From contig JAUWXV010000036.1 of the NCBI GenBank assembly GCA_030616165.1, positions 1-21,896 on the forward strand: a stretch of 21,896 nucleotides of DNA, read 5' to 3'. Both the position numbers and the translations under genes were made by a program. Below are positions 7,431 through 16,731 of the stretch, piece by piece (the stretch's first letter is position 1; each line of letters starts with the position of its first letter). The DNA is from a bacterium. GTDB lineage: Bacteria; SM23-31; JAUVVT01. Under the pieces are notes generated by a model. It searched no databases. It was given only the letters and a program-made list of their open reading frames with translations, and had not been told where the DNA came from.

Positions 7431-8570
7431 ATGATGTGGATTTTTTACGTTTTATTATTTTATTCTCTAATTTATTCAATTTTTTTATTTCTTTTGAGAA
7501 TCGGTCTAAAAAGATTAAAAAAAGGAAACAATGACAAACACTATTCTGTTTCAGTAATAACTGCAGCAAGAAACGAAGAGAAGAATATAGTAAGATTTTT
7601 GAACTCGATGAAAAATATTGATTATCCTCCTGATAGATGGGAATTGATAGTTGTTGATGACCGTTCAGAGGATTCTACTTTTAGATTGGCAGAATCTTTT
7701 AAATCGGAGATTCCAAATCTTCACATCATTAGAATTGAGAAAAAAGATATCAATATTTCCCCGAAAAAGAATGCTGTAGAGACAGCCATTCGAAACTCCA
7801 CAGGAGAAATAATACTGACTACCGATGCTGACTGCATTCCTGAAAAAAAGTGGATTTCGGAGATTGTATCTTACTTTGACAAAGAGACCGCGATGGTCGT
7901 GGGCTTTTCGCCTCTTATTGACAATGAAAATAAAGATAATTTATTAACATCATTTCAATTTATTGAGTCCATTTCACTTGGTGGATTATCAGCCAGTGCA
8001 ATAGGTCTTGGATTCCCTTTAACATGCTTCGGCAGAAATCTCGCATATAAAAGAGAAATATTTAACAATATCGGAGGATTCGGCAGGTTTAAAACATACA
8101 TTTCCGGTGATGATGACCTTTTAATGCACCTGATTAGAAAAAAAACAAAATTAAAAATTAAATACGCACAGAAATCAATTGTTCCATCTATACCTGCTGA
8201 AAATTTTAAAGATTTTGTAAATAACCGTTTAAGACATGCATCTAAATTCATTCAGTATCCTTTAGATGTTAAAATTATCTCAGCATTTTTTTATTTATTT
8301 AATTTAACTATTATACTTTCCTTTCCATGTATTTTCTTTATGCCCTCATATCTATGGATATTTATTATTTCATTATCAATAAAATATTTCTCAGATTACT
8401 CTTTTATTAAAAAAACCAAAAAAAAGTTCGGCATAAAAGAGCCTATCAAAAAATTTACAGTGGTATTTTTCCTTCATCCGTTTTATATAACAATATTAGG
8501 TCTCCTTGGTCTTAGAGGAAAATTTAAATGGAAAGATAAATTTTACAGAGCAAAAAACAGATGTCAATGA
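7431..8570 (+). CDS. Membrane-bound GT2 family glycosyltransferase (first of tandem pair)
   Basis: A 379-residue inverting glycosyltransferase of the GT-A/GT2 type. A hydrophobic helix (about 3-25) anchors the N-terminus. The catalytic domain shows SVITAARNEE (40-49), VVDD (74-77), TTDADC (130-135) with the metal-binding DAD, and GDDD (226-229). At least two hydrophobic segments follow near 285-320. The position where processive GT2 enzymes have Q-x-x-R-W reads NNRLRHAS here, so the tryptophan is missing. Acceptor and sugar are unknown; by context it could build an envelope glycolipid or polysaccharide. Start at one of two adjacent ATGs (7431 or 7434), with a weak ribosome-binding site. First gene of the only plus-strand operon; it overlaps the next gene by ten bases. 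It is clearly related to that gene along its whole length. Confidence 0.88.
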   Translation: MMWIFYVLLFYSLIYSIFLFLLRIGLKRLKKGNNDKHYSVSVITAARNEEKNIVRFLNSMKNIDYPPDRWELIVVDDRSEDSTFRLAESFKSEIPNLHIIRIEKKDINISPKKNAVETAIRNSTGEIILTTDADCIPEKKWISEIVSYFDKETAMVVGFSPLIDNENKDNLLTSFQFIESISLGGLSASAIGLGFPLTCFGRNLAYKREIFNNIGGFGRFKTYISGDDDLLMHLIRKKTKLKIKYAQKSIVPSIPAENFKDFVNNRLRHASKFIQYPLDVKIISAFFYLFNLTIILSFPCIFFMPSYLWIFIISLSIKYFSDYSFIKKTKKKFGIKEPIKKFTVVFFLHPFYITILGLLGLRGKFKWKDKFYRAKNRCQ

Positions 8571-9688
8571 TTTTTCTTTTAATAATTACAATTATATATT
8601 TCATTTCAGGAACTCTCTTTTTTATCGGTCTTATCAGAAGAAGAAATTTCAGCAGCAGCGAGAAACCATTTACATCGGTGGTAATTGCGGTAAGAAACGA
8701 AGAAAAATACATCAAGAACTGCCTTTTAGACCTTTCAAAACAAAGTTACCCGAATGAACTGTTCGAAATAATATTAGTTGATGACCATTCCGAAGATAAT
8801 ACCGGCAAAATAATAAAAGAATTTCAGAAAAGAGTAAACAATATTAAACTTCTTGAGATTCGAGAGAGAGCCGAAAAATTTTCCCCTAAAAAATATGCCC
8901 TATATGAAGGAATAAAGAAAAGCAGGGGAGAAATAATCTTGACTACAGATGCTGACTGCAGATTACAACCAAAGTGGATTGAATCTATGGTAAAAAACTT
9001 CACTCCAGAGTGTGGAATGGTTGCAGGTTTTTCTCAGATTTCTGAAAAAAACAAAATAGATTCGGTCTCAACCGGAGTCCAAGCCTTAGATTTCTTTTCA
9101 ATGATGAGTGCCGCTGCCGGGGCAATTTCATTAGGTTTTCCACTCGCTGCATCCGGACAAAATCTTGCATACAGAAAAGACGCTTTTTATAAAGTTGGAG
9201 GTTTTTCAAAAATAAAACACAGAATATCAGGTGATGACACTTTATTACTGCAGATGATAAAAAAATACACCGATTTTAAAATCAATTTTTCTTTTAATAA
9301 AGAATCCTTTGTAACTACCTATCCAATAAAATCGCTGAAAGAGCTCTTCAGCCAGAGAGCAAGGTGGGCTTCAAATGCCTTTTATCAGAGAAAAACAGAC
9401 ATCTTATTTTTCATTTATCTCATTAATCTCTATTTAATAAACCTTGGATTAATAATTTTTTTACCTCTCTCGGCATTCTTCAAGGAACTTGGACTTATCC
9501 CGGTTTGTTGTCTATTATTAAAGTGGCTTACTGATTTCTCGGTGATACTAAAAGGGGCAAAAACTTTTGATAGGATAGACCTTTTGAAATATTTTATTTA
9601 CTGGGAATTATTCCAACCCATATATTTTGTTTTTGTCGGAATTACTGGAACAATAGGAAAATTTACCTGGAAAGGAAGAAAATACTAA
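8561..9688 (+). CDS. Membrane-bound GT2 family glycosyltransferase (second of tandem pair)
   Basis: A 375-residue paralogue of the preceding gene with the same order of parts: N-terminal membrane helix (about 3-25), VVIAVRNEEK (40-49), LVDD (72-75), TTDADC (128-133), GDD (224-226) and C-terminal hydrophobic helices near 280-315 and at the end. Unlike its neighbour it keeps the full QRARW motif (265-269) of processive or lipid-linked GT2 enzymes, so this copy is the more canonical catalyst. The start may be 8561 or the ATG at 8567, which forms an ATGA overlap with the stop of the first glycosyltransferase; either way translation is probably coupled. The stop overlaps the start of the lipoprotein gene (TAATG). 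Sugar donor and acceptor cannot be deduced. Confidence 0.89.
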   Translation: MSMIFLLIITIIYFISGTLFFIGLIRRRNFSSSEKPFTSVVIAVRNEEKYIKNCLLDLSKQSYPNELFEIILVDDHSEDNTGKIIKEFQKRVNNIKLLEIRERAEKFSPKKYALYEGIKKSRGEIILTTDADCRLQPKWIESMVKNFTPECGMVAGFSQISEKNKIDSVSTGVQALDFFSMMSAAAGAISLGFPLAASGQNLAYRKDAFYKVGGFSKIKHRISGDDTLLLQMIKKYTDFKINFSFNKESFVTTYPIKSLKELFSQRARWASNAFYQRKTDILFFIYLINLYLINLGLIIFLPLSAFFKELGLIPVCCLLLKWLTDFSVILKGAKTFDRIDLLKYFIYWELFQPIYFVFVGITGTIGKFTWKGRKY

Positions 9689-11814: not shown

Positions 11815-13362
11815 TTAAGAATCTCTTATGCTTTCAATTGCATATGGAATACATTCAAGAACATCACTTGCAATAAGCCCCATTTCCCCCTTTTCTTTTC
11901 TTGCAATATCACCAGCCTTTCCGTGCAGATAAGCTCCTGCAACACCGGCATCAATCATAGATAATCCCTGTGCAGCAAGTCCTGCTATAATTCCGGTTAA
12001 TACATCCCCTATACCACCTGTAGCCATACCAGGATTTCCAACAGGTATTAAAAATGTATCCCCATCTGGATAAGATATAACAGTCGGAGAACCCTTTAAG
12101 AGAACATTGACTTTAAGAATTGATGCTGCTTTTTTTGCTGATTCAATGCGGTCTTTGAGAACCTCATCAATTTCGGTTTTCATCAGTCTGGAAAATTCAC
12201 CCTCATGGGGAGTTATTATAATATCGCTTTCAATACTTGAAAAAAACTCCAACCTTCCAGAAACAGGAAATAAGCCATCTGCATCCACCACCATAGGTAT
12301 TTTAACCTCAGGAAGAATGCTTAAAATAAGTTCAAGTGTTTCAGGATTCCTTGAAAGTCCAGGTCCTATTGCTAACACATCTGCCCACTCCAGTCTTTCA
12401 ATAATTTTATTTTTTGCTTTAACACTTAAAGTCCCATGTTTAGTTTCAGGAAGTGGAAATGTAATGACTTCGGTAAGTTTCTCCTCCATAATAGGATTAA
12501 GAGATTCAGGAATACCCAAAACAGCCAATCCTGCTCCAGTTCTCAGTACAGCAAGGGATGCCAGCGCCGCCGCTCCTGTCATCCCTCTTGAACCTGAAAG
12601 TATAAAAATCTTACCACATTCCGTCTTGTTACAATTCACCCTTCTTGCAGGAAGAAGCCTAAGTATTTCCGACTCTTCGGGTATATTTAATAAAACATTC
12701 TCTTTATTTATAACCTCCTCAGGATATCCAATATCAGCAACTATAATCTCTCCAGCCATTTCTCTTCCAGGAGAAACGACAAGCCCTTTTTTCTTTAATC
12801 CCATAGTAACAGTTTGCACCGCTTCAATACAATCCCCCTCAAACTGTCCTGTATCTGAATTTAGGCCAGAAGGAATATCAACCGAAACAACAGGAATATT
12901 CAAACTGTTTATCAATTCAATTGCTTTTCCAATTATTCCGTAAACTCTTCCAGATATTCCTGTTCCCAGAAGAGCATCTATAATTATATCACCTTCAATA
13001 AAAAACTCGTCAAACCATTCATCAGAAACAACAAATTCAATATTTAAACCCATATTCTCGGCAATAATAAGATTAGTTAAAGCATCCCCTTTAATCTCTT
13101 CCTTCTTTGCAAAAATATAAACATTAACATCAAATCCTTCATTGAAAAGTTCTCTAACAGCAACTAATCCATCACCACCATTATTCCCTTTGCCACAAAA
13201 AACAAGTACTATATCTCCATTATTTTCATCTAAAAAATCCATTACAGTTCTTGCTACAGTTAATCCCGCTCTTTCCATTAGAACAATCCCGGGAATCCCA
13301 ACTTCTTCAATCGCTCTTCTGTCGATATTCCTGATTTCACTGGCTGTAACAATCTTTTCCAT
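11815..13362 (-). CDS. nnr: Bifunctional NAD(P)H-hydrate epimerase / ADP-dependent dehydratase
   Basis: Nnr repairs damaged hydrated NADH and NADPH. The N-terminal YjeF_N domain (about 1-215) swaps the R and S epimers: GKGNNGGDG (57-65), DALLGTGISG (129-138), DIPSGLNSDTG (162-172). The C-terminal ribokinase-like domain (about 235-515) removes water from the S form using ADP or ATP: GSRGMTGAAAL (257-267), AIGPGLSRNP (331-340), VVDADGLF (358-365), TPHEGEF (384-390), and GNPGMATGGIGDVLTG (442-457), with likely catalytic D453. The ATG at 13360-13362 has AAAGGAG eight bases upstream and is the right family start; the frame runs on to a TTG at 13386, which is rejected. The length of 515 residues is normal for the fused form. 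It is the downstream neighbour of the CHC2-MinD gene, with 209 bases between. Confidence 0.96.
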   Translation of the reverse strand: MEKIVTASEIRNIDRRAIEEVGIPGIVLMERAGLTVARTVMDFLDENNGDIVLVFCGKGNNGGDGLVAVRELFNEGFDVNVYIFAKKEEIKGDALTNLIIAENMGLNIEFVVSDEWFDEFFIEGDIIIDALLGTGISGRVYGIIGKAIELINSLNIPVVSVDIPSGLNSDTGQFEGDCIEAVQTVTMGLKKKGLVVSPGREMAGEIIVADIGYPEEVINKENVLLNIPEESEILRLLPARRVNCNKTECGKIFILSGSRGMTGAAALASLAVLRTGAGLAVLGIPESLNPIMEEKLTEVITFPLPETKHGTLSVKAKNKIIERLEWADVLAIGPGLSRNPETLELILSILPEVKIPMVVDADGLFPVSGRLEFFSSIESDIIITPHEGEFSRLMKTEIDEVLKDRIESAKKAASILKVNVLLKGSPTVISYPDGDTFLIPVGNPGMATGGIGDVLTGIIAGLAAQGLSMIDAGVAGAYLHGKAGDIARKEKGEMGLIASDVLECIPYAIESIRDS

Positions 13363-13571
13363 ATTTGCTACTCCTTTAGTAAACAAAACTTATTCTGCTA
13401 TTTTGGAAAATAATGATAAGGAGAAATACTCATTATTTCTCATATCTTATATTACAAGAAATAATAAATTAAAAATTCTCCATAAAATATAAATTTATTT
13501 TATTAAAAAGTCAAAGAATTTAAAAAAGAAGAAAAAATGGTATGGAAAAGTTTGCAAATCAGGAATGAAAA

Positions 13572-15257
13572 TCAACTAAATACTTTAATCCTTGAGCCCC
13601 ATTTCGATTTAATTTCACGGATATAATCTTTCTGGCTGGATATGACATCAGCGATCGAACCGCTTTTCAGACCAAGAATATTATCGCCGATATGATAAAT
13701 GTCTTCAAGGGCTTCATCTTCAGGATTATATATAACATATGGCATTTTATAATTAGATATGTTAACCAATGACTTACTTTCTCTCAAGTTACCAAGATAG
13801 ATTAATTTCTGAGATAAATAATGTTTCATTTTCTCAGAAACCTCAGATTGAATTTCCCAAGCCTGTGCAGAATCGGTCTTATTGACTACGAGACCGTATA
13901 TGCTCTTGGACAAAATTGAATCCAGACGGTTCACATAGGAATCAAGTCTCTCTGAATTCTCCACAACTTCATTTATCCTTTTATAAATAGAAAGTTTTTT
14001 ATTATAACTAATCGAACTTCCATTATTACCTTTGAATATTAACTCCATTACATTTTCTTTTAATTCTGCAATCTCTTCCCTTACCTTTCCCAAAACAACT
14101 TCTCCAAAAATTCTCGGAGGCAATCCGAGTTCAAATTTTATGGGAAGAACCTCTTTTTTATAAAAACTCTCAAGGTTGCCGTTTCTTATTCTCTTATCAT
14201 CCAGTTTTTTAAGTTCAAACCTCAAGTCATCTATTCGAAACCCGGTTCTCGTGCAGTCTCGGAGTTTTTCTAAAAATTCAAGAATATCTTTTTCCTTCTG
14301 AAAAGCATTCTTTAATTGGTCATATATCATCGTCAACATAAGGCTGAATATTGCATGTTTTGAAGTCTCTTCAGAGGTTATAACAAATATCTTGGCATAT
14401 ATACTATGAAGAAAATCAAGAATATCTTTATTTATTCCCCCACCGAAGTCAGCGAGTTTTATTTTTGCATTAGAATCATTAATCAGATAGATTATCTCAT
14501 TCTTATGAAAATAGAATAGATTTTGTGACCTTCTTACTGGTGAAGGAGAAACAAAACAGAGACTATTAATGTCTGTTTCTTCTTTTATTCTGTTCCATCC
14601 TAAATTTTTCTTTTTATTGTAAAGAATATCCTCGATATAAAATTTTGGCTCGATGCCAATAATTAATCTCTGGTCAGGTTTCCCAAAATCAAGATCAATC
14701 AATTCAACATTTTGAAGTTCATTTTTTCGATAATCAGAAATGAATTTTAAAAGAAGGGCAAAAGAGAATGCAAGATTATTAACTATAAGACTTTTACCTG
14801 TGCCACCTTTCAAAGAAGTAAATCCAAGGAGATTAATACCTCTATTATTATTTATCTCTTTAATTACTTCGCTATATATAGTTTCCTTATTCGGGAAGAA
14901 ATTTCCTTTAAACTTCGGGTTACCTTGCTTTTTAGATTCAATCCCTGCTCTTATTGCAAGAAATTCAATTGCTTTTTTTCTGTCAATATCTTTTATCCGC
15001 ATAACAAGGTCTATAACGTCACCTTTTACATCATTACATATCCAGCATCTAAACGTATTCTTAAGCGGATTAAAGGTCATAGTCGGGTGCCCGTTCTTTA
15101 TTTTATGCCTGTCAATTCTTATACAAGGAATTGTCGAGCGATTGACATTTAAACCTAATTCACGGGCTACTTGTATTATATTATTTTCAGACTGAATTTC
15201 TTTAATGTTATATAATATCTCATCATCATCCTCCGGGATAAATCCAGACATCTTCAT
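13572..15257 (-). CDS. CHC2-type zinc finger fused to a MinD/ParA-type ATPase
   Basis: A 561-residue protein with an unusual domain order. Residues about 17-106 resemble the DnaG primase zinc-binding domain: IKEIQSENNIIQVARELGL, then C45, H51, C71 and C74 as a C-H-C-C zinc site, then KGDVIDLVMRI and AIEFLAIRAGI, which match the helical end of that domain. No TOPRIM or primase core follows. Instead, residues about 143-320 form a deviant Walker A ATPase, SLKGGTGKS (148-156), LIDLDFGKPDQ (187-195) and the Walker B-like ADFGGG (269-274). The remaining 240 residues are mostly helical and unassigned. The ATG at 15255-15257 has GGAG five bases upstream; the longer frame starts at a TTG that is really the -35 box. 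It stands alone between a terminator and nnr. Its function is unknown; DNA positioning or chromosome organisation is a guess from the parts. Confidence 0.85.
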   Translation of the reverse strand: MKMSGFIPEDDDEILYNIKEIQSENNIIQVARELGLNVNRSTIPCIRIDRHKIKNGHPTMTFNPLKNTFRCWICNDVKGDVIDLVMRIKDIDRKKAIEFLAIRAGIESKKQGNPKFKGNFFPNKETIYSEVIKEINNNRGINLLGFTSLKGGTGKSLIVNNLAFSFALLLKFISDYRKNELQNVELIDLDFGKPDQRLIIGIEPKFYIEDILYNKKKNLGWNRIKEETDINSLCFVSPSPVRRSQNLFYFHKNEIIYLINDSNAKIKLADFGGGINKDILDFLHSIYAKIFVITSEETSKHAIFSLMLTMIYDQLKNAFQKEKDILEFLEKLRDCTRTGFRIDDLRFELKKLDDKRIRNGNLESFYKKEVLPIKFELGLPPRIFGEVVLGKVREEIAELKENVMELIFKGNNGSSISYNKKLSIYKRINEVVENSERLDSYVNRLDSILSKSIYGLVVNKTDSAQAWEIQSEVSEKMKHYLSQKLIYLGNLRESKSLVNISNYKMPYVIYNPEDEALEDIYHIGDNILGLKSGSIADVISSQKDYIREIKSKWGSRIKVFS

Positions 15258-15309
15258 AAAGACTCCAAAGAAATAGTTAATAAATTCATCAAAATTTCTA
15301 ATTTTATAT

Positions 15310-15338
15310 AATGTAAGAAAAAAAAAATTTTTAGTCAA
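15310..15338 (-). promoter_or_regulatory. Sigma70-like promoter of the CHC2-MinD gene
   Basis: On the minus strand TTGACT (15333-15338), 17 bases containing a run of T, then TACATT (15310-15315), overlapping TATATAA. Transcription would start near 15303 and the leader would be about 45 bases to the ATG at 15257. A terminator lies directly upstream, so this gene needs its own promoter. Confidence 0.6.
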
Positions 15339-15430: not shown

Positions 15431-15462
15431 TAAAAAAAAAGGAGACCTTTATGAAGATCTCC
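15431..15462 (-). terminator. Intrinsic terminator after the nuo-nrnA transcript
   Basis: On the minus strand GGAGA and TCTCC close a hairpin (15441-15462) with an inner CTT/AAG pairing and one mismatch, followed at once by nine T residues (15432-15440). This is the layout of a Rho-independent terminator and it faces the right way to stop transcripts from nrnA, about 265 bases past its stop codon. Confidence 0.75.
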
Positions 15463-15612: not shown

Positions 15613-15658
15613 TGTCATTGCCACGTCGTCCCCCGAGTACTCGGGGCTCGCAATGACA
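15613..15658 (-). repeat. GTCATT...GGCAAT repeat family, copy C (complete)
   Basis: This 46-base element has terminal inverted repeats TGTCATTG and CAATGACA and a central perfect palindrome CCCCGAGTACTCGGGG (15631-15646). On the minus strand it reads TGTCATTGCGAG, core, GGACGACGTGGCAAT. It is the most complete copy in the window and shows the nested dyad design of the family. Confidence 0.75.
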
Positions 15659-15726: not shown

Positions 15727-16731
15727 CTATTGCAATTTTCGGGTAATTACCTTTTCAATCTCTAAGAGAACTTCATCTTCTGCTTTTTGTAAAGTATAAT
15801 CTTTCATAAGGATGCCGGAAGCATTTTTATGCCCGCCTCCACCAAATATTTCAGCGATGCGATATACGTCATATTTCTTCTTAGACCTTAAACTAACCTT
15901 AATCTTATTTTCAGGAAGTTCTAAAAAAAGTGCGGCTATTTCTACATCTTTAACATCTGTAATATACTCCACAAATCCTTCAATATCTTCTATTTTTGCA
16001 CCCGACGACATCATCATCTCTTTTGAAACTTGAATGGAAACCGCTTTTCCACCTGCAATCTTCTTAAGAGTTGTCAGAGATTTAGAAAACAATATCATCC
16101 TTTCCCAGGAATAAGATTCATAGATATATCCAAATATCTCCCGTGGTTTAATACCCTTTTTCAGAAGTTCCGCGCATATGATGTGAGCCCTTGGAGTAGT
16201 ATTAGAAAAGCGAAATGAACCGGTATCTGTTAATATTGCTACATATAGAAAAAGTGCCATCTTTTCATCTATTTCAAATCCCATTCTGTTTACTAAGTCA
16301 AATACAATTTCTCCTGAGGCGGAAGCCAATTCATCGACTATATTTAAATCGCTCCATTTTATATTTGAATAATGATGGTCGATACATACTTTAGTAGCCC
16401 GACTGCTTTTTACAACTTCATCCATCCCACCCAGCCTTTCCATATTGCTAATATCCATAAGAAAAATTATATCACTTTCAAGAATGCGCTGCCGATATTT
16501 TTCTTCATAATGTTTAATCAATTTTCCATCAGGATCAAGAAATTTAAAAAATTCGGGGGTAGGAGAATCGTTAATAATAACAGAATCTTTACCGAGTTTT
16601 TCTAATAAACGACAAATCCCGAGTTCCGAACCGAGTCCGTCGCCATCGGGATTTATATGAGTAGAGACAATAAATTTGTGATTTTCCCTTATTATCTTTT
16701 CAAGTTTCTCCCAATCATCTTCGCTAATCAT
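15727..16731 (-). CDS. nrnA: DHH/DHHA1 phosphoesterase, NrnA-type oligoribonuclease / pAp phosphatase
   Basis: A 334-residue cytoplasmic enzyme of the DHH superfamily. NrnA proteins degrade very short RNA oligonucleotides and dephosphorylate 3'-phosphoadenosine 5'-phosphate; some members act on cyclic dinucleotide products. The metal-binding motifs are complete: THINPDGDGLGSE with H25, D29 and D31, LMDISN with D93, the name-giving D118-H119-H120, and LTDTGSFRFSNT with D169. The DHHA1 domain ends with FGGGGHKNASG, which binds the substrate. It begins 90 bases after the nuoN stop in the same direction with no convincing promoter between, so it may be read from the complex I transcript, and a strong terminator lies downstream. 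A weak GAGTG precedes the ATG. The exact substrate preference cannot be read from sequence. Confidence 0.9.
   Translation of the reverse strand: MISEDDWEKLEKIIRENHKFIVSTHINPDGDGLGSELGICRLLEKLGKDSVIINDSPTPEFFKFLDPDGKLIKHYEEKYRQRILESDIIFLMDISNMERLGGMDEVVKSSRATKVCIDHHYSNIKWSDLNIVDELASASGEIVFDLVNRMGFEIDEKMALFLYVAILTDTGSFRFSNTTPRAHIICAELLKKGIKPREIFGYIYESYSWERMILFSKSLTTLKKIAGGKAVSIQVSKEMMMSSGAKIEDIEGFVEYITDVKDVEIAALFLELPENKIKVSLRSKKKYDVYRIAEIFGGGGHKNASGILMKDYTLQKAEDEVLLEIEKVITRKLQ

Follow-up and report, generated by a model that had tools for sequence, protein, structure and literature searches.

A primase-type CHC2 zinc finger joined to a MinD/FlhG-class ATPase in a lineage of uncultured bacteria

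ATPases of the MinD/ParA class as a rule contact their cargo via a distinct partner protein, and the relatives of MinD and FlhG are generally pictured as positioning one dedicated cargo at the expense of ATP, with FlhG, ParC and CpaE being examples that position or regulate protein cargo. The primase CHC2-type zinc finger lets DNA primase read single-stranded DNA, and a primase zinc domain is able to work on the polymerase domain of a different subunit. Published accounts of the MinD/FlhG relatives likewise describe ATP-driven positioning of one dedicated cargo (PMC9178275, PMC10241942), and an N-terminal HTH that binds DNA is present in some ParA proteins (PMC9178275).

Here we analysed a protein in which a CHC2 finger and an ATPase of this class stand in a single chain. 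The window, that is, the whole stretch of 21,896 nucleotides under analysis, is contig C160 of a genome (G000) of 3.74 Mb that is 90% complete, and the nearest named records are MAGs of candidate division KSB1, a group of uncultured bacteria. The open reading frame and its coordinates, as given in the initial annotation, were borne out: the gene encodes 561 amino acids from an ATG at 15257, and the GGAG at 15266-15263 makes the alternative longer TTG start at 15338 less likely. The features of the gene are as follows.

13572..15257, minus strand: coding sequence of 561 aa; a CHC2 zinc finger and a linker precede a MinD/FlhG-like ATPase, which a helical insert divides and a C-terminal helix follows
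15263..15266, minus strand: Shine-Dalgarno-like GGAG, 5 nt ahead of the ATG, read from the sequence
14925..15209, minus strand: CHC2 zinc-finger domain, residues 17-111 (Pfam PF01807, AF2 fold)
15036..15125, minus strand: putative zinc ligands C45 (15123-15125), H51 (15105-15107), C71 (15045-15047) and C74 (15036-15038), arranged CX5H...CX2C
14325..14843, minus strand: first half of the MinD/FlhG-like ATPase, residues 139-311
14790..14810, minus strand: deviant Walker A KGGTGKS with signature lysine K150, residues 150-156; K150 and K155 invariant (alignments A1 and A2)
14682..14705, minus strand: switch-I ELIDLDFG, residues 185-192; the MinD/FlhG DxD is D188 + D190, both invariant (A1, A2)
14436..14450, minus strand: Walker B / switch-II DFGGG, residues 270-274; D270, G272 and G274 invariant (A1, A2)
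13902..14324, minus strand: helical insert, residues 312-452, with AF2 helices at 323-449 (alignment A2)
13665..13901, minus strand: second half of the ATPase (VVNK...YLGN...MPYV), residues 453-531; minD_arch match at 449-532
13575..13661, minus strand: C-terminal helix with conserved W553, residues 533-561 (AF2 model, alignment)

The claim that the protein begins with a CHC2 finger was supported by both the profile and the structure-based approaches. Pfam PF01807 matches residues 57-111 (E = 1.6e-6) with 28.3 bits against a cut-off of 24.9, and among the orthologues it scores 33.8 in L005, 24.9 in L007 and 35.3 in L008, while L006 (14.9) lies under the cut-off; the best E-value in an orthologue is 1.1e-8. 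A profile of five orthologous N-domains matches the Aquifex primase 2au3 over the entire finger (E = 0.0034). The AF2 model of residues 10-118, which was built from orthologues only and without zinc (pLDDT 80), is predicted to adopt the zinc-ribbon fold of the primase zinc domain, with Z = 11.7 over 93 residues at 2.2 Å against 1d0q and Z = 11.1 against 2au3, at 25-30% identity to both; the next fold match is the Twinkle helicase at Z = 6.1. The four ligands, C45, H51, C71 and C74, are those of the DnaG zinc-binding domain and are invariant in the five orthologues (5/5). DnaG of the same phylum, however, shows CX2H within GLCPFHxEK, whereas the first ligand pair of the window protein reads CX5H and contains an insertion at the position of the DnaG motif GLCPFHxEKTPSF, so that the finger belongs to the CHC2 family but departs from the DnaG consensus at this pair. 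The charge of the domain is roughly balanced (19 K+R against 16 D+E), and the nearest CHC2 sequences outside the phylum belong for the most part to primases, helicases or toprim proteins.

The protein has no Pfam or NCBIfam match to the primase catalytic (Toprim) domain, in agreement with the initial annotation, and a separate DnaG of 594 aa is encoded in the same genome (contig C21), which rules out identity as the primase. Orthology with FlhG was ruled out likewise, as the true flhG follows flhF in the flagellar operon of contig C27 and is distinct from the window gene; FlhA is present in 4/6 genomes of the phylum. Because the genome has its own flhF-flhG pair and a separate DnaG, the window gene is neither FlhG nor primase. 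The same genome encodes a third CHC2 protein (G000:C74:3793-3930), whose primase-type finger lies in an open frame of 789 aa and which possibly derives from a mobile element. A diverged accessory of primer synthesis, with the CHC2 module acting in trans with DnaG under the control of the ATPase, would be in keeping with the capacity of primase zinc domains to act across subunits and with the CHC2 proteins that stand alone on plasmids of Manganitrophus, next to the gene for a helicase. We nevertheless hold this option to be improbable, with no dnaG, dnaB or other replication gene in the neighbourhoods read.

In the ATPase part, the KGGTGKS and DFGGG motifs noticed at the outset are present with their key residues invariant. 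The full-length model (pLDDT 74, pTM 0.62) matches FlhG 4rz3 over residues 139-531 (Z = 24.4, 238 residues, 2.3 Å, 18% identity), FleN 5j1j with Z = 23.9 and MinD with Z = 21.8, and the alignment to FlhG/FleN ends at residues 529-532. Pfam CbiA (PF01656) spans residues 146-505 with a score of 21.1, under its cut-off of 25.4, and in the orthologues L005-L007 it exceeds this cut-off (27.7-30.8). By motifs and predicted fold, residues ~139-531 are one MinD/FlhG-class ATPase interrupted by a helical insert. The view that the last 240 residues match nothing thus had to be abandoned, as 453-531 correspond to the second half of the MinD/FlhG fold and 312-452 to a helical insertion. With FlhG/FleN the protein shares the ATPase fold, the deviant Walker A lysine and the DxD of switch I; unlike them, it has a ~140-aa helical insert and a CHC2 N-domain, and its gene has no linkage to flhF or to flagellar genes. 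We considered whether the C-terminal helix could be a membrane-targeting amphipathic helix of the MinD type; a helix is predicted there, and its hydrophobic moment in the window protein is not above that of shuffles (p = 0.26).

The assignment to the MinD/ParA-type ATPases stands as to class, with the fold and sequence being nearer to FlhG/FleN and MinD than to Soj/ParA (Z of 24 against 19). This bears on the idea that the protein is a chromosome or plasmid-partition ParA in which the finger replaces ParB or a DNA-binding N-domain, an idea that the deviant Walker A class and the precedent of an N-terminal DNA-binding HTH in some ParA proteins (PMC9178275) would favour. In addition to the distance from Soj/ParA, no ParB-like gene lies among the neighbouring ORFs read, in contrast to the ParA of ParABS, and there was no full-length plasmid match; a partition role is accordingly very unlikely.

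The joining of the two modules is real, conserved and restricted to the lineage. The fusion occurs in five of the six genomes of the phylum examined, one copy being cut by a contig end, and the sixth, in which it was not found, is 63% complete. An assembly chimera is ruled out because the same fused ORF recurs in five MAGs, the other four orthologues being 42-71% identical to the window protein. Beyond the phylum, only the five genomes of the phylum itself matched among 386 relatives at 1e-22 (at most three candidates scored per genome), and the fusion was found in no genome among 64 of another phylum, one in which the parent family has a close member, in a search with no positive control there. 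A phage or plasmid origin was rejected: full-length tblastn against phages and plasmids gave partial matches only, to the CHC2 or to the ATPase part, viral contigs searched with alignment A1 yielded nothing, and viral CHC2 loci had no P-loop within the same ORF. Among viral models, Foldseek placed first a 'ParA' of 456 aa from Siphoviridae sp. ctHip2 (E = 8.5e-5, rmsd 24). Two 'phage' ATPase matches turned out to be ordinary FlhG and MinD genes on bacterial-looking contigs. The records in question (MT835847.1 and MT836105.1) are filed as bacteriophage and look like bacterial contigs, with flhA-flhF-flhG and cheB, and with a penicillin-binding protein beside minD. No CHC2-MinD protein of this domain order was found in the databases searched or in the open-access literature, in line with the earlier statement that no described protein of this order was known; to the extent covered by these searches the combination is undescribed, both modules being already known.

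Relatives without the finger include short MinD/FlhG-like paralogues of ~330 aa (G000 contigs C93 and C248; alignment A3), which are homologous to the window protein from the P-loop to the C-terminal Trp (hhalign probability 99.6%, residues 143-554) but lack CHC2, have a ~60-aa equivalent of the ~140-aa insert and form a separate clade. This wider family is common, being found in 40/290 genomes at 1e-40, and of 28 members GYF_2 occurs in two and PilZ in one. GYF_2 lies at the N-terminus of MinD/FlhG-like ATPases of other phyla (L046 and L053), which share a cysteine-rich C-terminus (CSxRCxYWGDC...GGxPC). A sister protein was located in another genome of the phylum:

L009:1202-2851, minus strand (contig C299 of G003): J-domain paralogue, a long-insert ATPase with a J-domain where CHC2 stands

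The protein is 33% identical overall to the window protein and has the same ATPase and long insert, but its N-terminus is a DnaJ J-domain (PF00226, 2.8e-14), with a readable HPD motif, in place of CHC2. Its flanking genes read as nadD-like and as D-cysteine desulfhydrase/ACC-deaminase-like. In the tree the CHC2 and J-domain proteins group together (100/100), the CHC2 proteins form one clade (99/97) and the short paralogues fall apart from them, so that a long-insert ancestor most likely acquired or swapped its N-terminal domain inside this lineage. The presence of a J-domain at the place of CHC2 suggests that the N-terminal domain is an exchangeable adaptor.

Placing these results into a functional model, we tentatively lean toward an orphan MinD/FlhG-type switch whose CHC2 adaptor would direct it to single-stranded DNA or to a replication partner. 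The role first proposed for the protein, reading of DNA with ATP-driven localisation, is a reasonable suggestion. By analogy with MinD and FlhG, the ATPase would dimerise on ATP and be released on hydrolysis, while the CHC2 ribbon would bring the dimer to its target, the likeliest being single-stranded DNA at forks or gaps, or a primosome or helicase partner. A partner or a surface may be held by the enlarged insert together with the C-terminal helix, and the protein would place, load or regulate a factor at such sites, making no primers itself. The N-terminal domain would select the target, which for the J-domain paralogue we guess to be DnaK. This switch model draws support from the recognition of CHC2 by Pfam and by fold, with the closest outside CHC2 sequences lying mostly in replication proteins; from the FlhG/FleN-like fold with invariant K150, K155, D188, D190 and D270; and from the absence of a Toprim match alongside a separate DnaG, together with the J-domain paralogue and the GYF_2 and PilZ domains added in members of the parent family. 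Against the reading of DNA by the switch speak the CX5H insertion, the balanced charge and the lack of a linked partner gene in the neighbourhoods read, where the neighbours are nrnA, nnr, vanZ or hyuA/B.

It is also possible, and nearly as likely, that the CHC2 ribbon acts as an adaptor for protein partners, without any role at DNA, and that the ATPase positions or regulates a protein cargo, such as an envelope, polar, chemotaxis or secretion component, with the J-domain paralogue likewise recruiting DnaK clients. The reason is twofold. As the J-domain swap demonstrates, the N-terminal domain does not have to bind nucleic acid, and the first ligand pair is changed: with CX5H and an insertion in place of GLCPFHxEKTPSF, the ribbon may no longer read DNA and may bind protein instead. 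The GYF_2 and PilZ additions agree with such an adaptor, whereas the replication proteins that hold most of the closest CHC2 sequences and the close match to the primase zinc-domain fold argue against it. Returning to the switch directed to replication sites, its boldest form is a positioning ATPase that directly reads replication intermediates, where the ribbon would sense single-stranded DNA or the primosome, a MinD-like cycle would place or time a cellular process, and the sensor (CHC2 or J-domain) would be exchangeable; this we regard as rather unlikely. If the ribbon still binds single-stranded DNA, the replication state would be tied directly to a spatial regulator. Because the apparent targeting domain is fused onto the ATPase and is exchanged for a J-domain in the sister paralogue, the sequence may disclose which cargo is chosen, and domain swaps would offer a test of that choice.

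The surroundings of the gene comprise the following features.

15727..16731, minus strand: gene on the upstream side for a DHH-family phosphoesterase (reads as NrnA-like), which has the same upstream place in G001
15441..15462, minus strand: strong intrinsic-terminator-like hairpin between the DHH phosphoesterase gene and the CHC2-ATPase gene
11815..13386, minus strand: nnr on the downstream side (reads as NAD(P)HX epimerase/dehydratase), found downstream in G003 as well and in G004, there with inserted genes

The hairpin at 15462-15441 separates the gene from the one upstream, so that its description as sitting behind a terminator was upheld; that of an own promoter was not, since the number of promoter-like sites in this region does not exceed chance (10 against 12.1 expected). 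The order DHH phosphoesterase, CHC2-ATPase, nnr and vanZ is kept whole or in part in G000, G001, G003 and G004, in the last with insertions, a pattern better explained by vertical descent than by a shared pathway. The neighbourhood with nnr is thus kept, though with inserted genes in G004, and does not show a functional link to nnr. Elsewhere in the window, positions 15631-15657 hold a palindromic repeat (GTCATTGCGAGCCCCGAGTACTCGGGG) that is REP/MITE-like and has 14 copies in the genome at no more than 3 mismatches (0 for the reversed control), and positions 7431-8570 and 8561-9688 of the plus strand hold two overlapping genes in tandem whose products read as family-2 glycosyltransferases of related kind; a TPR lipoprotein comes next.
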